The notes under the pieces were generated by a model that saw only the letters and a list, made by a program, of their open reading frames with translations, did no database searches and was not told the origin of the DNA. A DNA stretch of 20,477 nt from a virus. A program made the translations under genes and the position numbers. Position 1 is the first letter of the stretch, and every line of letters begins with the position of its first letter. Of the stretch, positions 66 through 17,165 are shown piece after piece. The DNA lies in IMG/VR virus record IMGVR_UViG_3300042987_000016, positions 1 to 20,477 of that record; one strand, written 5' to 3'.

Positions 66-605
66 ATGGCACGCACGACATTTCAAGGCCCAGTCCGTTC
101 TTTGGCTGGCATGTACAACCAAGGCCCCGCCTCCGTTGTCGCAATCACCGCTTCTACCACTTTGAATCCTGTTGACCACGGCGGTCGTATTCTTTCTGTT
201 GGTGGCACTTTGGCCGCAGACATCACACTGACTCTGCCCACAATCGACGCATCTACCAACCCAGTTACTTCTGGCCCCGGCCAAGACCCTAGCACCAGCA
301 ACAACCAAGGTGTTGTGTACACAATTTGGGTTCCCACTACCATCGCTACCAGCTCTTTAAAGATTGGTACAGACGGTACTGACAAATACATTGGCACTAT
401 TTTTGGCATAGACACTGACAGCTCAAATGCTTTGGTTGCTTACACAGCCGCAGCAGCAAACGACTTCATCAACTTCAACGGTGGCACCACTGGTGGTGTT
501 GCTGGTACATGGGTGCAGATTTACGCAATTGCGGCTCTCAAGTACATGGTCAATGGCGTTGCTTTGGGTACAGGTACTGTTGCCACACCGTTTGCCAATT
601 CCTGA
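66..605 (+). CDS. Putative head decoration or other virion structural protein
   Basis: A 179-residue protein rich in Thr, Ala, Gly and Val with almost no Lys or Arg, a composition typical of beta-rich virion surface proteins. No signal peptide, membrane segment or catalytic motif is visible. A GAGG site 7 nt upstream supports the ATG start. In related phage layouts a protein of this size and composition follows the major capsid gene and is taken to be a head decoration or stabilisation protein. That role is inferred from position and composition only; it could instead be an appendage protein. The next gene starts 13 nt downstream with its own AGGAG site. Confidence 0.72.
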   Translation: MARTTFQGPVRSLAGMYNQGPASVVAITASTTLNPVDHGGRILSVGGTLAADITLTLPTIDASTNPVTSGPGQDPSTSNNQGVVYTIWVPTTIATSSLKIGTDGTDKYIGTIFGIDTDSSNALVAYTAAAANDFINFNGGTTGGVAGTWVQIYAIAALKYMVNGVALGTGTVATPFANS

Positions 606-618
606 TTAGGAGCATCCC

Positions 619-900
619 ATGACGATGCAATTTGACGTCAAGTCAGCACACGCTGAAGCAACAGGTACGATGATTTCAACGCGTACCCGACTCAAAGGCT
701 ATCAACTTTTGTCTGGGGGCACTGCTGGAGACATTGTTTTTACCGACGGGGGTTCAGGAGGAACTGAACGCCTGCGGGTCAATATCTCTACAAATACAGC
801 CGCTATCTCTACGTTGATTCCCGGCGAAGGTATTTTGTTCACAACAGATGTGTATGTGACCCTTCCCACCGCTGCAAAAATCACGGTGTTCTATGGCTAA
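619..900 (+). CDS. Small conserved phage protein, probably virion-associated
   Basis: A 93-residue, beta-rich protein starting with the pattern M-x-M-Q-F-D-V-K-S-A-H. The body is Thr/Gly/Ile rich (segments such as GDIVFTDGG and ITVFYG). An AGGAG site at 608-612 is 6 nt before the ATG at 619; an in-frame ATG at 625 is a weaker alternative. Its last 8 bases overlap the next gene (ATGGCTAA), so the two are probably translationally coupled. I recognise it as a recurring small protein of aquatic phage structural operons but know no established function. A minor head or completion component is the best guess. Confidence 0.7.
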   Translation: MTMQFDVKSAHAEATGTMISTRTRLKGYQLLSGGTAGDIVFTDGGSGGTERLRVNISTNTAAISTLIPGEGILFTTDVYVTLPTAAKITVFYG

Positions 901-1216
901 GTCACCAGCATGGCAACGCAAGGAAGGGAAGTCCGAGAGCGGCGGCTTGAACGCCAAAGGACGCGCCTCCTACAACAGAGCGAATCCGGGGAAACCCGGA
1001 TTGAAGCCACCTCAGCCAGAGGGCGGCAGTCGCCGCGACTCTTTCTGCGCCCGTATGAAAGGCATGAAAGCGAAGCTTACGAGCGCCAAGACCGCCAACG
1101 ATCCGGATTCGAGGATTAACAAGAGCCTTCGTGCGTGGAACTGTGCTGATGGTGGCTACGTCACCAAGGCCGATGGTTGCGCCACCAAGGGAAAGACGAA
1201 AGGTAGGTTTGTATGA
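893..1216 (+). CDS. Small basic phage protein resembling DUF6321
   Basis: A 107-residue Lys/Arg/Gly-rich protein. Residues 4-84 carry the pattern SPAWQRKEGKSESGGLNAKGR, then N-P-G-K-P-G-L-K-P-P, RRDSFCARMKGM and TSAKTANDPDSRINKSLRAWNC, which I recognise from memory as the phage family DUF6321; no function is established. Cys52, Cys84 and Cys97 are present but form no clear zinc site. The last 15 residues (ADGCATKGKTKGRFV) form a tail motif repeated in the next gene and in the gene at 1730. It overlaps its neighbours by 8 nt upstream and 4 nt (ATGA) downstream. The charge suggests binding to nucleic acid or to an acidic virion surface; this is inference. Confidence 0.85.
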   Translation: MAKSPAWQRKEGKSESGGLNAKGRASYNRANPGKPGLKPPQPEGGSRRDSFCARMKGMKAKLTSAKTANDPDSRINKSLRAWNCADGGYVTKADGCATKGKTKGRFV

Positions 1217-1539
1217 AAAAAATCGGCAAAAAACCTACTGATGACCAAATGCTTGAAGGTGGCGGTGCTGGTGCTGGCAAAGTAAGCACCAATACTCCTT
1301 GGCTTGGTAATGAGCGCGTAACAGGTGGTCGATCAGCAAAAGATTACAAAGAAAAAGAACGAACATCCGAATTTTCGGGTGAAATGAGTTTTGGTTCACC
1401 AAGTGGGCGAGATTACGGGTCTGGTGATAGATCACCTCGCACAAGTGATGACTACGCCAAAGGCGGCAAAGTTTCCAGCGCATCAGCCCGTGCTGACGGT
1501 TGTTGCACCAAAGGTAAGACCAAAGGACGGATGGTTTAA
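1213..1539 (+). CDS. Small basic Gly/Ser-rich protein with DGC-TKGKTKG tail
   Basis: A 108-residue hydrophilic, probably largely disordered protein. It is rich in Gly, Ser, Lys and Asp (GGGAGAGK near the start, GDYGSGDRSPRTSDD-type low-complexity centre). It has a YAKGGKV motif and ends in ADGCCTKGKTKGRMV, almost the same tail as the preceding gene. The codons differ at many third positions between the two tails, so the likeness is kept at protein level. The start overlaps the upstream stop by 4 nt (ATGA), and the stop directly abuts the next ATG. No family is recognised beyond the tail motif, and the function is unknown. Confidence 0.78.
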   Translation: MKKIGKKPTDDQMLEGGGAGAGKVSTNTPWLGNERVTGGRSAKDYKEKERTSEFSGEMSFGSPSGRDYGSGDRSPRTSDDYAKGGKVSSASARADGCCTKGKTKGRMV

Positions 1540-1728
1540 ATGGCTGATATTGAATTGACAGATCGTGAACGTGCCATTGCCAAAGAAGCGGCAAAGCTGG
1601 CCCTTGAAGAACTTTCGTCTGAGTTTTACAAGAAGGTCGGTAAGACTGTTGTCGAAAAGCTTTTGATTTGGGCGGGCATGTTGTTTGTCGGTTTTGTGTT
1701 GGGCAAAGGCTGGGTAGTCAAGGTTTGA
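1540..1728 (+). CDS. Small single-pass membrane protein
   Basis: A 62-residue protein. Residues 1-38 are a charged amphipathic helix (many Glu, Lys, Arg), and residues 40-60 are a single hydrophobic segment (LLIWAGMLFVGFVLG followed by KGW). The ATG directly follows the previous TAA. Size and topology are compatible with a small holin-like or other inner-membrane protein, but it lies about 9 kb before the lysis cassette and has only one membrane span. It could instead be a virion or assembly membrane anchor. It resembles small membrane proteins I recall from aquatic phages, without a known role. Confidence 0.75.
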   Translation: MADIELTDRERAIAKEAAKLALEELSSEFYKKVGKTVVEKLLIWAGMLFVGFVLGKGWVVKV

Positions 1729-1729
1729 C

Positions 1730-2161
1730 ATGCCAAGCACCAGCAAAAAGCAACACAACTTTATGGCCGCAGTGGCGCACAACCCTGCGTTTGCAAAGCG
1801 TGTGGGAATCCCGCAAAGCGTTGGGCGTGAGTTCAACCAAGCGGACAAGGGTAAAAAATTTTCAGGAGGTGGTGAAATGAAAGAGTCCAAGGCTATGGCC
1901 AAGAAAGAAATTTCGTTCATGGAGCGCAAAGGTGCTCCCAAATCTATGGTTAAACATGAGAAAGAGGAGTACGGTATGAAAAAAGGCGGCATGAAGAAAA
2001 TGGCTTCTGGCGGCATCACCAGCGCAAAAATGGGTTCTGTCAAAACCGCAGCTCCCAGCAAAGACGGTGTTGCTTCCAAAGGCAAGACCAAAGGCACCAT
2101 GATTTCCATGAAGGGCAGCACCCCTCTGGGAATGAAAAAGGGCGGCAAGGCCTACTGCTGA
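1730..2161 (+). CDS. Lys-rich phage protein, DUF3008-like N-terminus, likely two-module
   Basis: A 143-residue strongly basic protein. Residues 1-45 (MPSTSKKQHNFMAAVAHNP, then FAKRVGIPQSVGREF) match a small phage protein commonly labelled DUF3008, as far as memory allows. Residues 50-94 form a second module (KESKAMAKKE, FMERKGAPKSMVKHE, then MKKGGMKKM). An internal ATG at codon 50 (1877) has a near-perfect AGGAGG site 7 nt upstream, so a shorter 94-residue product from the same frame is plausible. Residues 111-125 (KDGVASKGKTKGTMI) repeat the tail motif of the two genes upstream. There are no membrane segments. Function unknown; nucleic-acid or virion-lumen binding is a guess from charge. Confidence 0.85.
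   Translation: MPSTSKKQHNFMAAVAHNPAFAKRVGIPQSVGREFNQADKGKKFSGGGEMKESKAMAKKEISFMERKGAPKSMVKHEKEEYGMKKGGMKKMASGGITSAKMGSVKTAAPSKDGVASKGKTKGTMISMKGSTPLGMKKGGKAYC
1864..1879 (+). promoter_or_regulatory. Internal ribosome binding site and in-frame start
   Basis: AGGAGGT at 1864-1870 is followed by an ATG at 1877, a spacing of 7 nt after AGGAGG. This is among the strongest such sites in the window, yet it lies inside the 1730-2161 gene, in frame, at codon 50. It falls between the two recognisable modules of that protein. It may give a second, N-terminally truncated product covering only the second module. The Gly-Gly-Gly-Glu it encodes would otherwise be an ordinary linker. Confidence 0.6.
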
Positions 2162-2845: not shown

Positions 2846-3775
2846 ATGGCAACAACTTCTGGACAAGCAGGCTTTAATTTAGACCTCACCGAATTGGTAG
2901 AGGAGGCGTTTGAGCGTGCGGGTTCAGAGATGCGTACCGGGTATGACCTGAAAACGGCACGTCGGTCGCTTAATTTGTTGTTTGCCGACTGGGCAAACCG
3001 TGGTATCAACATGTGGACGTTTGAACAAGGGACAATCACCCTTGAGCAAGGTTTGAACACATATACGATTCCTGTAAACACTGTGGACTTGCTGGATCAT
3101 GTGATTCGTACACAGGCAAATGTGGCGGCAACGCAGTCGGATTTGACAATTACACGCATCAGTGTGTCTACCTACGCCACGATCCCCAACAAATTGACCC
3201 AAGCAAGACCGATTCAGGTTTGGTATCAACGTTTGGACGGTCAAATTGCTGCGACAACTTCTACTTTTGTAAGTGATGATGTCAATGCGCAGACAGTTAC
3301 GCTGACCAACACAATCGGTTTTCCCACAACAGGGTATGTTGACATAGGCACAGAGACAATTTTTTACAACTGGATTGACGGCAACACTTTAAACGGTTGT
3401 TTTCGCGGACAGAATGGCACGTCACCGATCACCCCAACCGTAGGAACTGCGGTTTATTTGAACAACGTCCCCCGAGTAACCGTTTGGCCAACGCCTGATG
3501 GTTCTCAGACATACCAGTTTGTGTACTGGCGCATGCGGCGTGTTCAAGATGCGGGCGGTGGTGTCAACGTTATGGATGTACCGTTCCGTTTTATTCCTTG
3601 CATGGTGGCAGGACTGGCCTACTACATCGCGCTCAAAATTCCGGGCGGTATGGAACGGTTACCCATCTTGAAACAACAGTATGACGAAGCTTGGATGACG
3701 GCGGCTGACGAAGATCAAGAACGCGCCGCGCTGCGTCTCGTGCCTAGACAGATGTTCATTGGGAGCAGCACTTAA
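2846..3775 (+). CDS. Head-tail connector/adaptor-like protein (P22 gp4-like) with inserted domain
   Basis: A 309-residue protein. Residues 10-60 (L-T-E-L-V-E-E-A-F-E-R-A-G, then A-R-R-S-L-N-L-L-F-A-D-W-A-N-R-G-I-N-M-W) form a helical start reminiscent of gp4-type connector proteins that bind the portal and seal the head. Residues 120-133 and 208-236 (RPIQVWYQRLDG; VTVWPTPDG and VYWRMRRVQDAG) look like the two halves of a continuous beta region. They are separated by an insert at about 134-207 that recurs in the 736-residue tail protein at 12398. The C-terminal third is helical. It overlaps the next gene by one base (TAATG). The connector role is inferred from pattern and from the adaptor-like gene at 4589. 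Confidence 0.8.
   Translation: MATTSGQAGFNLDLTELVEEAFERAGSEMRTGYDLKTARRSLNLLFADWANRGINMWTFEQGTITLEQGLNTYTIPVNTVDLLDHVIRTQANVAATQSDLTITRISVSTYATIPNKLTQARPIQVWYQRLDGQIAATTSTFVSDDVNAQTVTLTNTIGFPTTGYVDIGTETIFYNWIDGNTLNGCFRGQNGTSPITPTVGTAVYLNNVPRVTVWPTPDGSQTYQFVYWRMRRVQDAGGGVNVMDVPFRFIPCMVAGLAYYIALKIPGGMERLPILKQQYDEAWMTAADEDQERAALRLVPRQMFIGSST
3245..3466 (+). other. Inserted beta-domain, copy 1 (in connector-like protein)
   Basis: Encodes about residues 134-207 of the connector-like protein. Key positions are G163-Y164-x-x-I167-G168-x-E170-T171-I172-x-Y174, then T181-L182-x-G184-C185-x-R187-G188, then a Thr/Pro-rich stretch ending G-T-A-V-Y. The same order of residues occurs in the tail protein at 12398. 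It appears to interrupt an otherwise continuous protein, and looks like a mobile accessory beta-domain of virion proteins. Confidence 0.65.
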
Positions 3776-4391: not shown

Positions 4392-4592
4392 ATGGCTGAA
4401 TACAAACAACCCAAGACCATCCCGACTGTGGATGTGTACAACCAGCCAAACAAAGAGTATCTGCGTGAGGCAAACGTGTCTGTGGGCAATGTGCGCAGCG
4501 GTGACTACAAAGGCACCAAGACTGACGGCATCAAAATCCGTGGCACTGGCGCAGCAACTAAAGGCGTGATGGCCAGAGGCCCGATGGCATGA
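4392..4592 (+). CDS. Small phage protein with RGTGAATKG-ARGPMA tail
   Basis: A 66-residue hydrophilic protein. The N-terminus is Pro/Tyr rich (PTVDVYNQPNKEYLRE) and the C-terminus runs T-K-T-D-G-I-K-I-R-G-T-G-A-A-T-K-G-V-M-A-R-G-P-M-A. This C-terminal block recalls the DGC-TKGKTKG tails of the genes at 893, 1213 and 1730 in layout (D-G, then T-K-G, then R) but is not identical. GGAGG at 4382-4386 lies 5 nt before the ATG. It overlaps the following adaptor-like gene by 4 nt (ATGA). It is a conserved companion of head-tail genes in related phages as far as I recall; function unknown. Confidence 0.78.
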   Translation: MAEYKQPKTIPTVDVYNQPNKEYLREANVSVGNVRSGDYKGTKTDGIKIRGTGAATKGVMARGPMA

Positions 4593-5308
4593 ATTACACC
4601 CAGTTGTCCGCTTCAATCCAATCGTATATTGAGAATACGTTTCCCCAAACGTATTTGTACGATGGCGGAACTGTGTCTTCTCAAACTCAAATAGACACGT
4701 TCATTAAACAAGCGGAACAACGAATTTACAACGTTGCGCAGCCACCGGCTTTGCGCAAAAATGTCAACGGCACATTTACAAGCGGCAACAAATATTTAAA
4801 TTTGCCGCCTGATTTTTTATCGGTCTACTCAGTTGCTGTGTACACGGATACCGCGCTTGCACTAAACAGCCCACAAGAATTTTTGTTGGACAAGGATGTC
4901 AACTTTATTCGGCAGGCGTACCCAACACCTACTGACACGGGGTTGCCAAAATACTATGCACTGTTTGGTGTTACGCAGGGCGTCAATGTGACTACGCCGT
5001 ATAAAGATTACACGTTGATCGTGGGGCCTACCCCTGACAGCGACTACCTTGTCGAGCTACATTACTTTCACTATCCGCCGTCAATTGTTGATGTGCAAAC
5101 ATCGTGGCTTGGGGATAATTTTGACAGTGTTCTTTTGTATGGCTCTTTATTAGAAGCCATCACTTTCATCAAAGGTGAACCAGATGTGGTTGCTTTGTAC
5201 CAATCACGGTACAGTGAAGCAATGAGTTTATACAAACTTCTTTGTGATGGTAAAGAGCGTACTGATGCTTATCGTACCGGCCAGACACGGATATCAGCAA
5301 ACACTTAA
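4589..5308 (+). CDS. Phage adaptor protein (SU10-adaptor-like)
   Basis: A 239-residue protein. The N-terminal third is helical (YTQLSASIQSYIENTFPQTY; TQIDTFIKQAEQRIYN), then a beta region follows (YLNLPPDFLSVYSVAVY), the motif VGPTPDSDYLVELHYFHYP, and a helical C-terminus (SVLLYGSLLEAITFIKGE, SRYSEAMSLY). This order (helical opening, Pro-Pro-D-F-L turn, G-P-x-P-x-x-x-Y-x-x-E-L strand, C-terminal helices) matches the adaptor proteins that join portal to tail in short-tailed phages such as SU10. The assignment is from memory. The start overlaps the previous stop by 4 nt. Together with the 2846 gene it would form the neck. Confidence 0.82.
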   Translation: MNYTQLSASIQSYIENTFPQTYLYDGGTVSSQTQIDTFIKQAEQRIYNVAQPPALRKNVNGTFTSGNKYLNLPPDFLSVYSVAVYTDTALALNSPQEFLLDKDVNFIRQAYPTPTDTGLPKYYALFGVTQGVNVTTPYKDYTLIVGPTPDSDYLVELHYFHYPPSIVDVQTSWLGDNFDSVLLYGSLLEAITFIKGEPDVVALYQSRYSEAMSLYKLLCDGKERTDAYRTGQTRISANT

Positions 5309-15572: not shown

Positions 15573-17165
15573 ATGCCCGCACTGCTTATGACCGCCGCCG
15601 AGATTGCAGCAGCCGAAGCTGCCGCAGCGGAAATACTTGCCGCCCAACAAGCAGCCGCTGTTGCTGAAGCTGCACAAGCTGCACAAGCTGCACAAGCCGC
15701 ACAAGCTGCACAAGCCGCACAAGCTGCACAAGCCGCACAAGCTACACAAGCCGCGCAAGCTACAGCTACCGCAACAAACGCAGCAACAAACCAATCAGTT
15801 CTTCAAGCCATAGGCGCACAAGGAGGCGCACCTGCATCTGCTGCACAAATGGGGGGCTACGGCGGTGTAAACGGTATCCAAGCGCTGGCGCAAGAAGTAG
15901 GAGCTAATATACCTTCAGGCGGCGTAAGTAATTTGGTAAACACTACAGCAGGGCCAACCAGTTGGGAACAGATTTTTAGCCAAGGCCAAAACATAGCCGA
16001 CACTTCTACAAAAATAGCTGATGTGGCTGGCCCCGGACAGGGGCAATACGTTGATTTAAGTGGAGCGCCTGCTGGACAAGTTTCTCCCAACCCTATTCCT
16101 TCCGTAGAAATAACACCACACCAATCAGTTTCGCATAATCTTGATCCCGTACAACAAATCCAATCACAATCAGTTGACTTTGGCGAGGGCGTTGGAGAGA
16201 CTCTTGGGCGAGGGTCTTATGCTTCACCATCCGCACCTCCTGCCGCACCTCCTAATACTACTTATAGTGCTTTGGCGGATAAATACGGTTTAGATACTAG
16301 TGTTGGAATGAATCCTAAAGGTGCAGAAACTCTTAAACTCCAACCGTCAGGAGACCCTTTCTACAACATCAATTCTGGGCACATCAACCAAACATTGGGT
16401 AGACCGGGTTACGACCTTAGGGCCGTAGCGGCTGAACCCAGTGCGTTTACCTCTAACTTGCCCGCACAACCAGCAACTGGAATTCAAGGGCTGATAGACA
16501 AAAGTTTGGCGTATGCAAAAGAACACCCCTTGCAAACCGCTTATGGTGCAATGACGGCTTACAACATACTCAATCAACCTAAGCCGTACGAAAAGCCAAA
16601 GTACAAATCTACATTTGACCCCAGCACTTACAGGCCATACGAACCCACACCACCTAACCCTCCGTACCGCGCTCGGTATGCAGGCGGTGGGCCAATTGAA
16701 AGGATGTCAGACGCAAATGCTGTTGGAGCCAACACAGGTTACCCAATGGCAGACATTAACAAAGGCGCATACGCAGCGCCATATCAAACACCTATGTCTC
16801 AAAATGTTGTGCAAGGCGCATCAGATACCGGAGTAAACCCGGTAACTGGAGAGATGCTTAATTTTGCTCGTGGCGGTATTTCTGATCTTGGCGGTTACTC
16901 AGACTATGCCCGTGGTGGGCGCATGCTCAAAGGGCCGGGAGACGGCATGTCTGACGACATACCTGCGACAATTGCCAACAAGCAGCCCGCACGTTTGGCC
17001 AACGAAGAGTTTGTGATTCCTGCCGATGTGGTCTCTCACCTTGGTAATGGCTCGTCTGAAGCTGGCGCTAAAGCGTTGTACAAGATGATGGACAGAGTTC
17101 GTCAAGCACGCACAGGCACCAAGAAACAAGGCAAACAGATCAACCCTGAGAAGTACCTAGCATGA
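15573..17165 (+). CDS. Ala/Gln-rich virion protein with (AAQ)n repeat and GPGDG C-terminus
   Basis: A 530-residue protein. Residues 7-62 are almost all Ala, Gln and Glu, with ten AAQ-type triplets at 33-62, likely a long helix. The central 400 residues are Pro/Gly/Ser/Asn rich. Glycine motifs follow (YAGGGPIERM, FARGGISDLGG, YARGGRML). Residues 454-530 form the conserved end: GPGDGMSDDIPATIANKQPA, then EEFVIPADVVSHLGNGS, AGAKALYKMMDRVR and a basic tail. I recognise this end from many phages, where it is unassigned. AGGAG at 15562-15566 supports the ATG. With the later genes it may form the internal or ejected protein set. Function unproven. Confidence 0.83.
   Translation: MPALLMTAAEIAAAEAAAAEILAAQQAAAVAEAAQAAQAAQAAQAAQAAQAAQAAQATQAAQATATATNAATNQSVLQAIGAQGGAPASAAQMGGYGGVNGIQALAQEVGANIPSGGVSNLVNTTAGPTSWEQIFSQGQNIADTSTKIADVAGPGQGQYVDLSGAPAGQVSPNPIPSVEITPHQSVSHNLDPVQQIQSQSVDFGEGVGETLGRGSYASPSAPPAAPPNTTYSALADKYGLDTSVGMNPKGAETLKLQPSGDPFYNINSGHINQTLGRPGYDLRAVAAEPSAFTSNLPAQPATGIQGLIDKSLAYAKEHPLQTAYGAMTAYNILNQPKPYEKPKYKSTFDPSTYRPYEPTPPNPPYRARYAGGGPIERMSDANAVGANTGYPMADINKGAYAAPYQTPMSQNVVQGASDTGVNPVTGEMLNFARGGISDLGGYSDYARGGRMLKGPGDGMSDDIPATIANKQPARLANEEFVIPADVVSHLGNGSSEAGAKALYKMMDRVRQARTGTKKQGKQINPEKYLA
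15669..15758 (+). repeat. 9-bp tandem repeat, ten units, coding (AAQ)10
   Basis: Ten consecutive 9-bp units of the type GCTGCACAA, in frame as Ala-Ala-Gln. Units 1-3 begin GCT, and units 3-8 alternate GCT/GCC, giving an 18-bp higher-order unit repeated three times. Units 9 and 10 are degenerate (ACA or GCG in the middle, the former giving Thr). The alternation points to stepwise duplication. Length changes by slippage would keep the reading frame. Confidence 0.9.

Follow-up and report, generated by a model that had tools for sequence, protein, structure and literature searches.

Three neighbouring small genes at the start of a virus record encode proteins that carry the same short peptide, DGxxxKGKTKG, at or near their C-terminal ends. 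The record, 20,477 bases long and analysed in full (the window), takes in part of a late operon. The question raised by this locus is why proteins with apparently dissimilar bodies should share such an ending, and an earlier note, made from the letters alone, had proposed that it could be a packaging, docking or cleavage signal.

The shared peptide in the window

All six frames of the window were searched with the strict motif [DN]G...[KRQ]G[KR][TS][KRQ]G. Three matches were found, all on the + strand and all within the ORFs starting at 893, 1213 and 1730, which confirmed the peptide in the three proteins and at the places where it had first been noticed (Table 1). The number of matches expected from residue composition is about 0.0003 per whole window, and a chance origin was therefore ruled out. 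The peptide, referred to here as the tag, had been described as a shared tail. This is accurate for the 893 and 1213 ORFs, in which the stop comes three residues after the motif, but not for the 1730 ORF, in which the motif is internal and the protein continues for 21 residues beyond the DGxxxKGKTKG core, ending in GGKAYC. AlphaFold models place the tag in disordered tails, comprising residues 86-107 of the 893 product and the low-confidence C-terminal region of the 1730 product. A reading of the tag as the Walker A element of a P-loop NTPase was rejected: the letters GxxxxGKT formally fit GxxxxGK[ST], but the region is predicted to be disordered instead of forming the folded strand-loop-helix, and a Gly stands two residues past the Thr, so that the match was considered a coincidence.

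Table 1. Features of the head-operon region of the window, in order of position
Feature	Position	Strand	Basis or remark
Cement-like head protein ahead of the cassette	66..605	+	Counterpart of L006:8882-9445 by sequence and by position right after MCP; DSL-LC04 has an annotated 'cement protein' there
Small conserved head-operon protein ahead of the cassette	619..900	+	phrog_28102 (weak); homologues in 141 loci
Tagged protein 1, 107 aa: DUF6321 (residues 12-82), linker, C-terminal tag	893..1216	+	Pfam PF19846, E=1.4e-19
Tag 1, ADGCATKGKTKGRFV-COOH	1169..1213	+	DG at 1172; residues 93-107 of the 893 ORF; fits the consensus
AAAGGTAGG within tag codons, probable ribosome-binding site for the ATG at 1213	1199..1207	+	Sequence; codon skew in coupled genes
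Tagged protein 2, 108 aa: low-complexity body of LEGGG type with the tag at the C-terminus	1213..1539	+	
Tag 2, ADGCCTKGKTKGRMV-COOH	1492..1536	+	DG at 1495; residues 94-108 of the 1213 ORF
AAAGGACGG within tag codons, probable ribosome-binding site for the ATG at 1540	1522..1530	+	Sequence; codon skew in coupled genes
Untagged 62-aa protein with C-terminal hydrophobic stretch, among the tagged genes	1540..1728	+	No significant match in PHROG or Pfam
Tagged protein 3, 143 aa: helical module at the N-terminus, then a variable middle, the tag (internal) and GGKAYC at the end	1730..2161	+	phrog_16759, E=3e-21; phrog_22033 and phrog_25121 'virion structural protein'; structure model
N-terminal module, residues 1-43, in common with jumbo-phage virion proteins	1730..1858	+	
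Tag 3, internal, KDGVASKGKTKGTMI	2060..2104	+	DG at 2063; residues 111-125 of the 1730 ORF
Head-tail adaptor closing the cassette	2846..3775	+	PF24175 SU10_adaptor, E=6.7e-07; homologues in 298/360 loci
Separate family of small proteins; tail KT[TD]GIKIRGTGAATKG.MARGPMA	4392..4592	+	61 distinct members
Second adaptor (SU10-type), beyond which relatives have no tagged genes	4589..5308	+	Homologue of L006:13135-13872, PF24175, E=1.4e-24

Spread of the tag and nature of the tagged bodies

The tag was surveyed in 360 loci, most of them from IMG/VR; the sample was partly fetched by means of tagged proteins, so that prevalence is better taken from the samples fetched by MCP (see below). The motif was present in 563 distinct ORFs, 340 of which stop exactly three residues past it, while in a second group it mostly lies 10-21 residues before the end. 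The C-terminal form has the consensus SASxRADG[CI]Ax[RK]GKT[KR]G[RK][MIF][VCI]-COOH. Because tags were selected by motif, the letters fixed in it look more conserved than they are. The search pattern permitted R at position -7 and S at position -6, yet the former was K in 316 cases and R in 2, and the latter T in 316 cases and S in 2. At positions -9, -5 and -3, K and R are about equally frequent.

The bodies ahead of the tag are diverse. They fall into 130 BLAST clusters; as short disordered bodies diverge fast, independent origins may be fewer but not more. When the profiles of the three families in the window were compared with hhalign, the aligned columns (16, 25 and 26) comprised the tag only, in agreement with the description of the proteins as otherwise dissimilar. 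The earlier note had counted a motif that is just the end of one homologous family, on proteins absent from virions, among the grounds against its proposal. A single homologous family was rejected, since the bodies do not align and one of them, DUF6321, exists without a tag.

The 893 product belongs to DUF6321 by its body only (PF19846, 70.9 bits; cut-off 28.5). This domain, encoded at 893-1138 of the window, is common among cyanophages and pelagiphages (565 records) and also closes the larger proteins of several phage families that otherwise differ (phrog_3477, 727, 30733 and others). Most relatives, cultured and uncultured, have the same domain but stop at its end without a tag. A full-length match in phage HTVC115P was discounted: the alignment crossed a stop codon, and the DUF6321 of this phage has no tag. 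Only 36 DUF6321 genes in the survey are tagged and 217 of 253 are not; most of the latter occupy the same slot, beside other tagged genes. Because tag-free DUF6321 occupies this slot, the tag is an add-on to the bodies. The body of the 1213 product had no significant match among cultured phages, and the tag is kept in 15 of its 15 homologues in the fetched loci, a count of homologues that omits one query (c0_145) that matched mainly the 619-900 family of small head proteins and not a tag body.

The 43-residue N-terminal module of the 1730 product is also present in phiKZ (PHIKZ165.1) and other jumbo phages. Modules of this type (phrog_16759, 22033 and 25121) stand before differing bodies, including that of CBB_322, an 847-residue protein that was detected in virions by mass spectrometry with 30 peptides (PMC5259590). 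The module proteins of phiKZ and CBB that were examined share residues 1-43 with the 1730 product but lack the DGxxxKGKTKG end. In the Shewanella phage vB_Sb_QDWS, a 1730-type N-terminal module stands at the start of a 616-aa protein whose gene closely follows the portal gene (L377:4001-5848); judged by eye only, this protein seems to run on into a Nudix-like stretch. Neither the DUF6321 nor the 1730 family had structural relatives in the PDB.

A stricter DNA pattern, run against 257 Gb of bacterial and archaeal genomes, matched six contigs, of which three (L361, L362 and L366), all from metagenome bins, contain real tags. A tblastn search of cultured phages with the bare tag found no match; this is a limit of sensitivity, since the Planktothrix phage Pag-Yong1 has a tag. 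An identical tagged protein of 308 aa, ending in ...GRDGCAKRGRTKGRFI, occurs in Pag-Yong1, MinM2 and Pra-JY27. The gene for the Pag-Yong1 tagged protein, UMO75986.1 (C-terminal end ...DGCAKRGRTKGRFI), lies between the capsid and portal-adaptor genes. The end and the gene position are of the same kind as those of the tagged proteins described above, but Pag-Yong1 has one tagged gene only, and the body of UMO75986.1 is unrelated to any other cultured phage protein. A relative of the group (L407) has His-rich degenerate tags, RADGIAQRGHTRYRGDKH and RADGIARKGHTKCACGGGKM, in the same slot.

Genomic setting and charge of the tagged proteins

In relatives of the window the gene order is TerL, portal, a GroES-like gene, an acidic scaffold-like gene, two further genes, MCP, the cement-like gene, the small-gene cassette and the SU10-type adaptors. 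The scaffold-like gene is a homologue of L006:5790-6743. The MCP gene is outside the window and its position was taken from these relatives, in which its product matches PF25209 Phage_capsid_4. The position of tagged genes is exclusive. On contigs that bear an adaptor, all 505 of 505 distinct tagged ORFs are on the adaptor strand; where MCP is also visible, 254 lie between MCP and the adaptor and 22 between both adaptors, with none upstream of MCP or past the second adaptor. Among loci fetched by the tag pattern alone, an adaptor or MCP was visible in 112 of 117, and four of the other five are contigs shorter than 3.3 kb. In the samples fetched by MCP, which were blind to the tag, tags were found in 24 of 25 close relatives and in 11 of 40 distant ones, all downstream of MCP and on the same strand. 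The motif search across phages that had been suggested at the outset found the tag on unrelated bodies and, in hundreds of phage contigs, clustered next to the gene for the capsid protein. A search of the accessible, mostly non-subscription literature with RGKTRG and GKTKGR (together with phage) and with DUF6321 found no paper on the tag or on DUF6321 and no description of a portable peptide carried by many bodies in one genomic slot.

The tagged proteins are strongly basic. Net charge is positive in 99% of tagged bodies, with a median of +10 in the gap between MCP and the adaptor, and the tag itself contributes about +5. The median for untagged genes is -3 upstream of MCP, +1 in the gap and 0 downstream. 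The cassette also holds two small basic proteins without tags (2163-2441 and 2438-2671 of the window), of a phrog_17747-type with NYTKP..GQWSARKAQ..AKxYK and of a KSLKxWxxQKWRTKSGK type, respectively, which are kept even in tag-free relatives.

Codon usage and selection

The codons of the three tags in the window differ as the earlier note had claimed. Across the survey, most tag positions use several synonymous codons, as do background genes, and because most third codon positions vary, selection on the tag acts at the protein level. Among tagged DUF6321 genes dN/dS was 0.08-0.10 for the tag, a value biased low by the picking of tags by motif, and 0.05 for the body, with synonymous sites saturated. 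The selection on protein that the earlier note had proposed was borne out. Recent DNA duplication as the source of the shared tag, already doubted from the codons of the window, was rejected on the codon differences and the saturation of synonymous sites, although some copying within genomes remains. Tags on unrelated bodies have a similarity of 12.12 of 16 within a genome and 10.98 across genomes (null sd 0.13), and share codons at 0.52 and 0.44, respectively. Since codons as well as residues are more alike within a genome, a shared partner and local copying may both contribute. Four loci (L009, L010, L019 and L020) have chimeras whose N-terminal half is that of a 1213-type gene and whose C-terminal half comes from a different tagged gene, which shows that tagged neighbours recombine.

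The last tag codons, judging from their sequence, probably double as the ribosome-binding site of the next gene. The codon of Gly-4 is GGA or GGG in 200 of 297 tagged genes when the next gene is coupled versus 4 of 31 when the next start is 5-20 nt away, and uncoupled tagged genes have the same residues with other codons. A ribosome-binding site as the sole cause of the tag was rejected, for it accounts only for the skew at these last codons.

A docking or targeting signal as the proposed function of the tag

The tag is a sequence-specific peptide on varied small basic proteins whose genes lie beside MCP in the head operon, and for this reason we favour the reading that it is a portable docking or targeting signal for incorporation into the head, a reading to which we give about an even chance. 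A stretch of some 16-20 disordered residues, usually at the C-terminus, would be appended to varied small basic proteins of the late head operon. A component of head assembly (scaffold, capsid protein or connector) would bind it through the near-invariant D-G....G-K-T.G residues and bring the tagged proteins into the capsid during assembly, where the basic bodies would then lie with the DNA; the proteins would probably be ejected into the host. We infer their presence in virions from gene position, basic charge and the virion-protein module at the N-terminus of one of them. Alignment of the tag alone among three families, the many body clusters, the fixed end three residues past the motif and the near-invariant K-7 and T-6 agree with docking. 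The protein class with the tag 10-21 residues from the end, and the part of within-genome similarity that comes from DNA copying, speak against it. Relatives without the tag have the upstream head genes just as often, and we name no partner because the presence or absence of these genes does not predict the tag. The tag is dispensable, as DUF6321 is mostly untagged in the slot and 29 of 40 distant MCP relatives are tag-free.

The nearest working analogue is the capsid targeting sequence (CTS) of phage T4, which is found on the varied basic internal proteins IPI-III (PMC9026906). Both are short conserved peptides on several small basic proteins with divergent bodies. However, the CTS is N-terminal, has about 10 residues and is removed by the protease gp21, whereas the tag is C-terminal or nearly so, has a different sequence and runs to the natural stop; in the 340 ORFs mentioned above the motif lies three residues before it. 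Since it sits at the opposite end of the protein, the tag is no CTS, but its mode of action may be similar, from the C-terminus and probably without cleavage. The cargo-loading peptides of encapsulins (PMC10960027, PMC8346489) offer a second likeness: they too are short, disordered and usually terminal peptides, and send cargo into a shell of the HK97 fold. The tag, itself short and of predicted disorder, differs from them in sequence and setting; encapsulins lack genome packaging, but the operon studied here has terminase and portal genes, which make it that of a phage.

The basic charge could also have another meaning. The tag might be a tail that binds or condenses nucleic acid, a basic Gly-rich peptide coating phage DNA or RNA without any docking partner, as tag and bodies are both so strongly basic. 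Plain electrostatics does not need a near-invariant K-7 and T-6 where R and S are allowed, nor a conserved acidic D, and leaves the fixed C-terminal distance unexplained; we regard this alternative as rather unlikely. The operon position and the sequence data would equally suit proteins that dock on an intermediate of head assembly or of the connector, for instance as assembly factors, and are then released, so that they are absent from mature virions; the adaptor genes do adjoin. Diverse and fast-changing bodies would be unusual in essential assembly factors, and the 1730 family has a virion-protein module, which makes this alternative unlikely in our judgment.

The roles first proposed are partly supported; cleavage, the last of the three, is disfavoured. 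A maturation site cut by a prohead protease has a precedent in the T4 internal head proteins, which are cut in head maturation (PMC9026906), and one tagged family has a module in common with jumbo phages, but the fixed distance to the stop and the conservation of the last three residues speak against it, and in the close relative L006 none of the genes from portal to MCP was recognised as a separate protease gene; we consider it very improbable. Equally improbable is conservation at the DNA level, with the tag codons serving as a translational-coupling or recombination sequence for gene swaps and the peptide having no role of its own: the codon skew in coupled genes, the codon sharing within genomes and the chimeras (L009) would fit, but this explanation is already weakened by variable third positions at most tag codons, saturated synonymous sites and the residues kept with other codons in uncoupled genes.

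Returning to the targeting signal, a more specific version of it is possible, but we advance it tentatively. The tag would be an uncleaved C-terminal capsid-loading signal of a common lineage of aquatic phages, used for fast-changing small basic proteins that the phage injects together with its DNA and that act on the host, for instance by countering its defences, and new cargo would be acquired by swapping bodies ahead of the tag. If true, the targeting reading would provide a sequence rule by which internal head proteins, and candidates for injected effectors, could be recognised among the unannotated genes of hundreds of aquatic phages not yet in culture, and a short tag with which foreign proteins could be loaded into phage heads. 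Even without packaging, it is a portable peptide kept on many types of body in one genomic slot.

Other small proteins of the window

The 66-residue protein encoded at 4392 had been taken for a carrier of a looser version of the tag. It is instead a member of a separate family, whose conserved tail is a different one (Table 1) and invariant in the family, and its gene always adjoins that of the second, SU10-type adaptor. Farther downstream, the ORF at 15573-17165 encodes a 530-aa protein with an AAQ-type repeat run near its N-terminus and, towards the C-terminus, several short elements rich in Gly (YARGG, FARGG).
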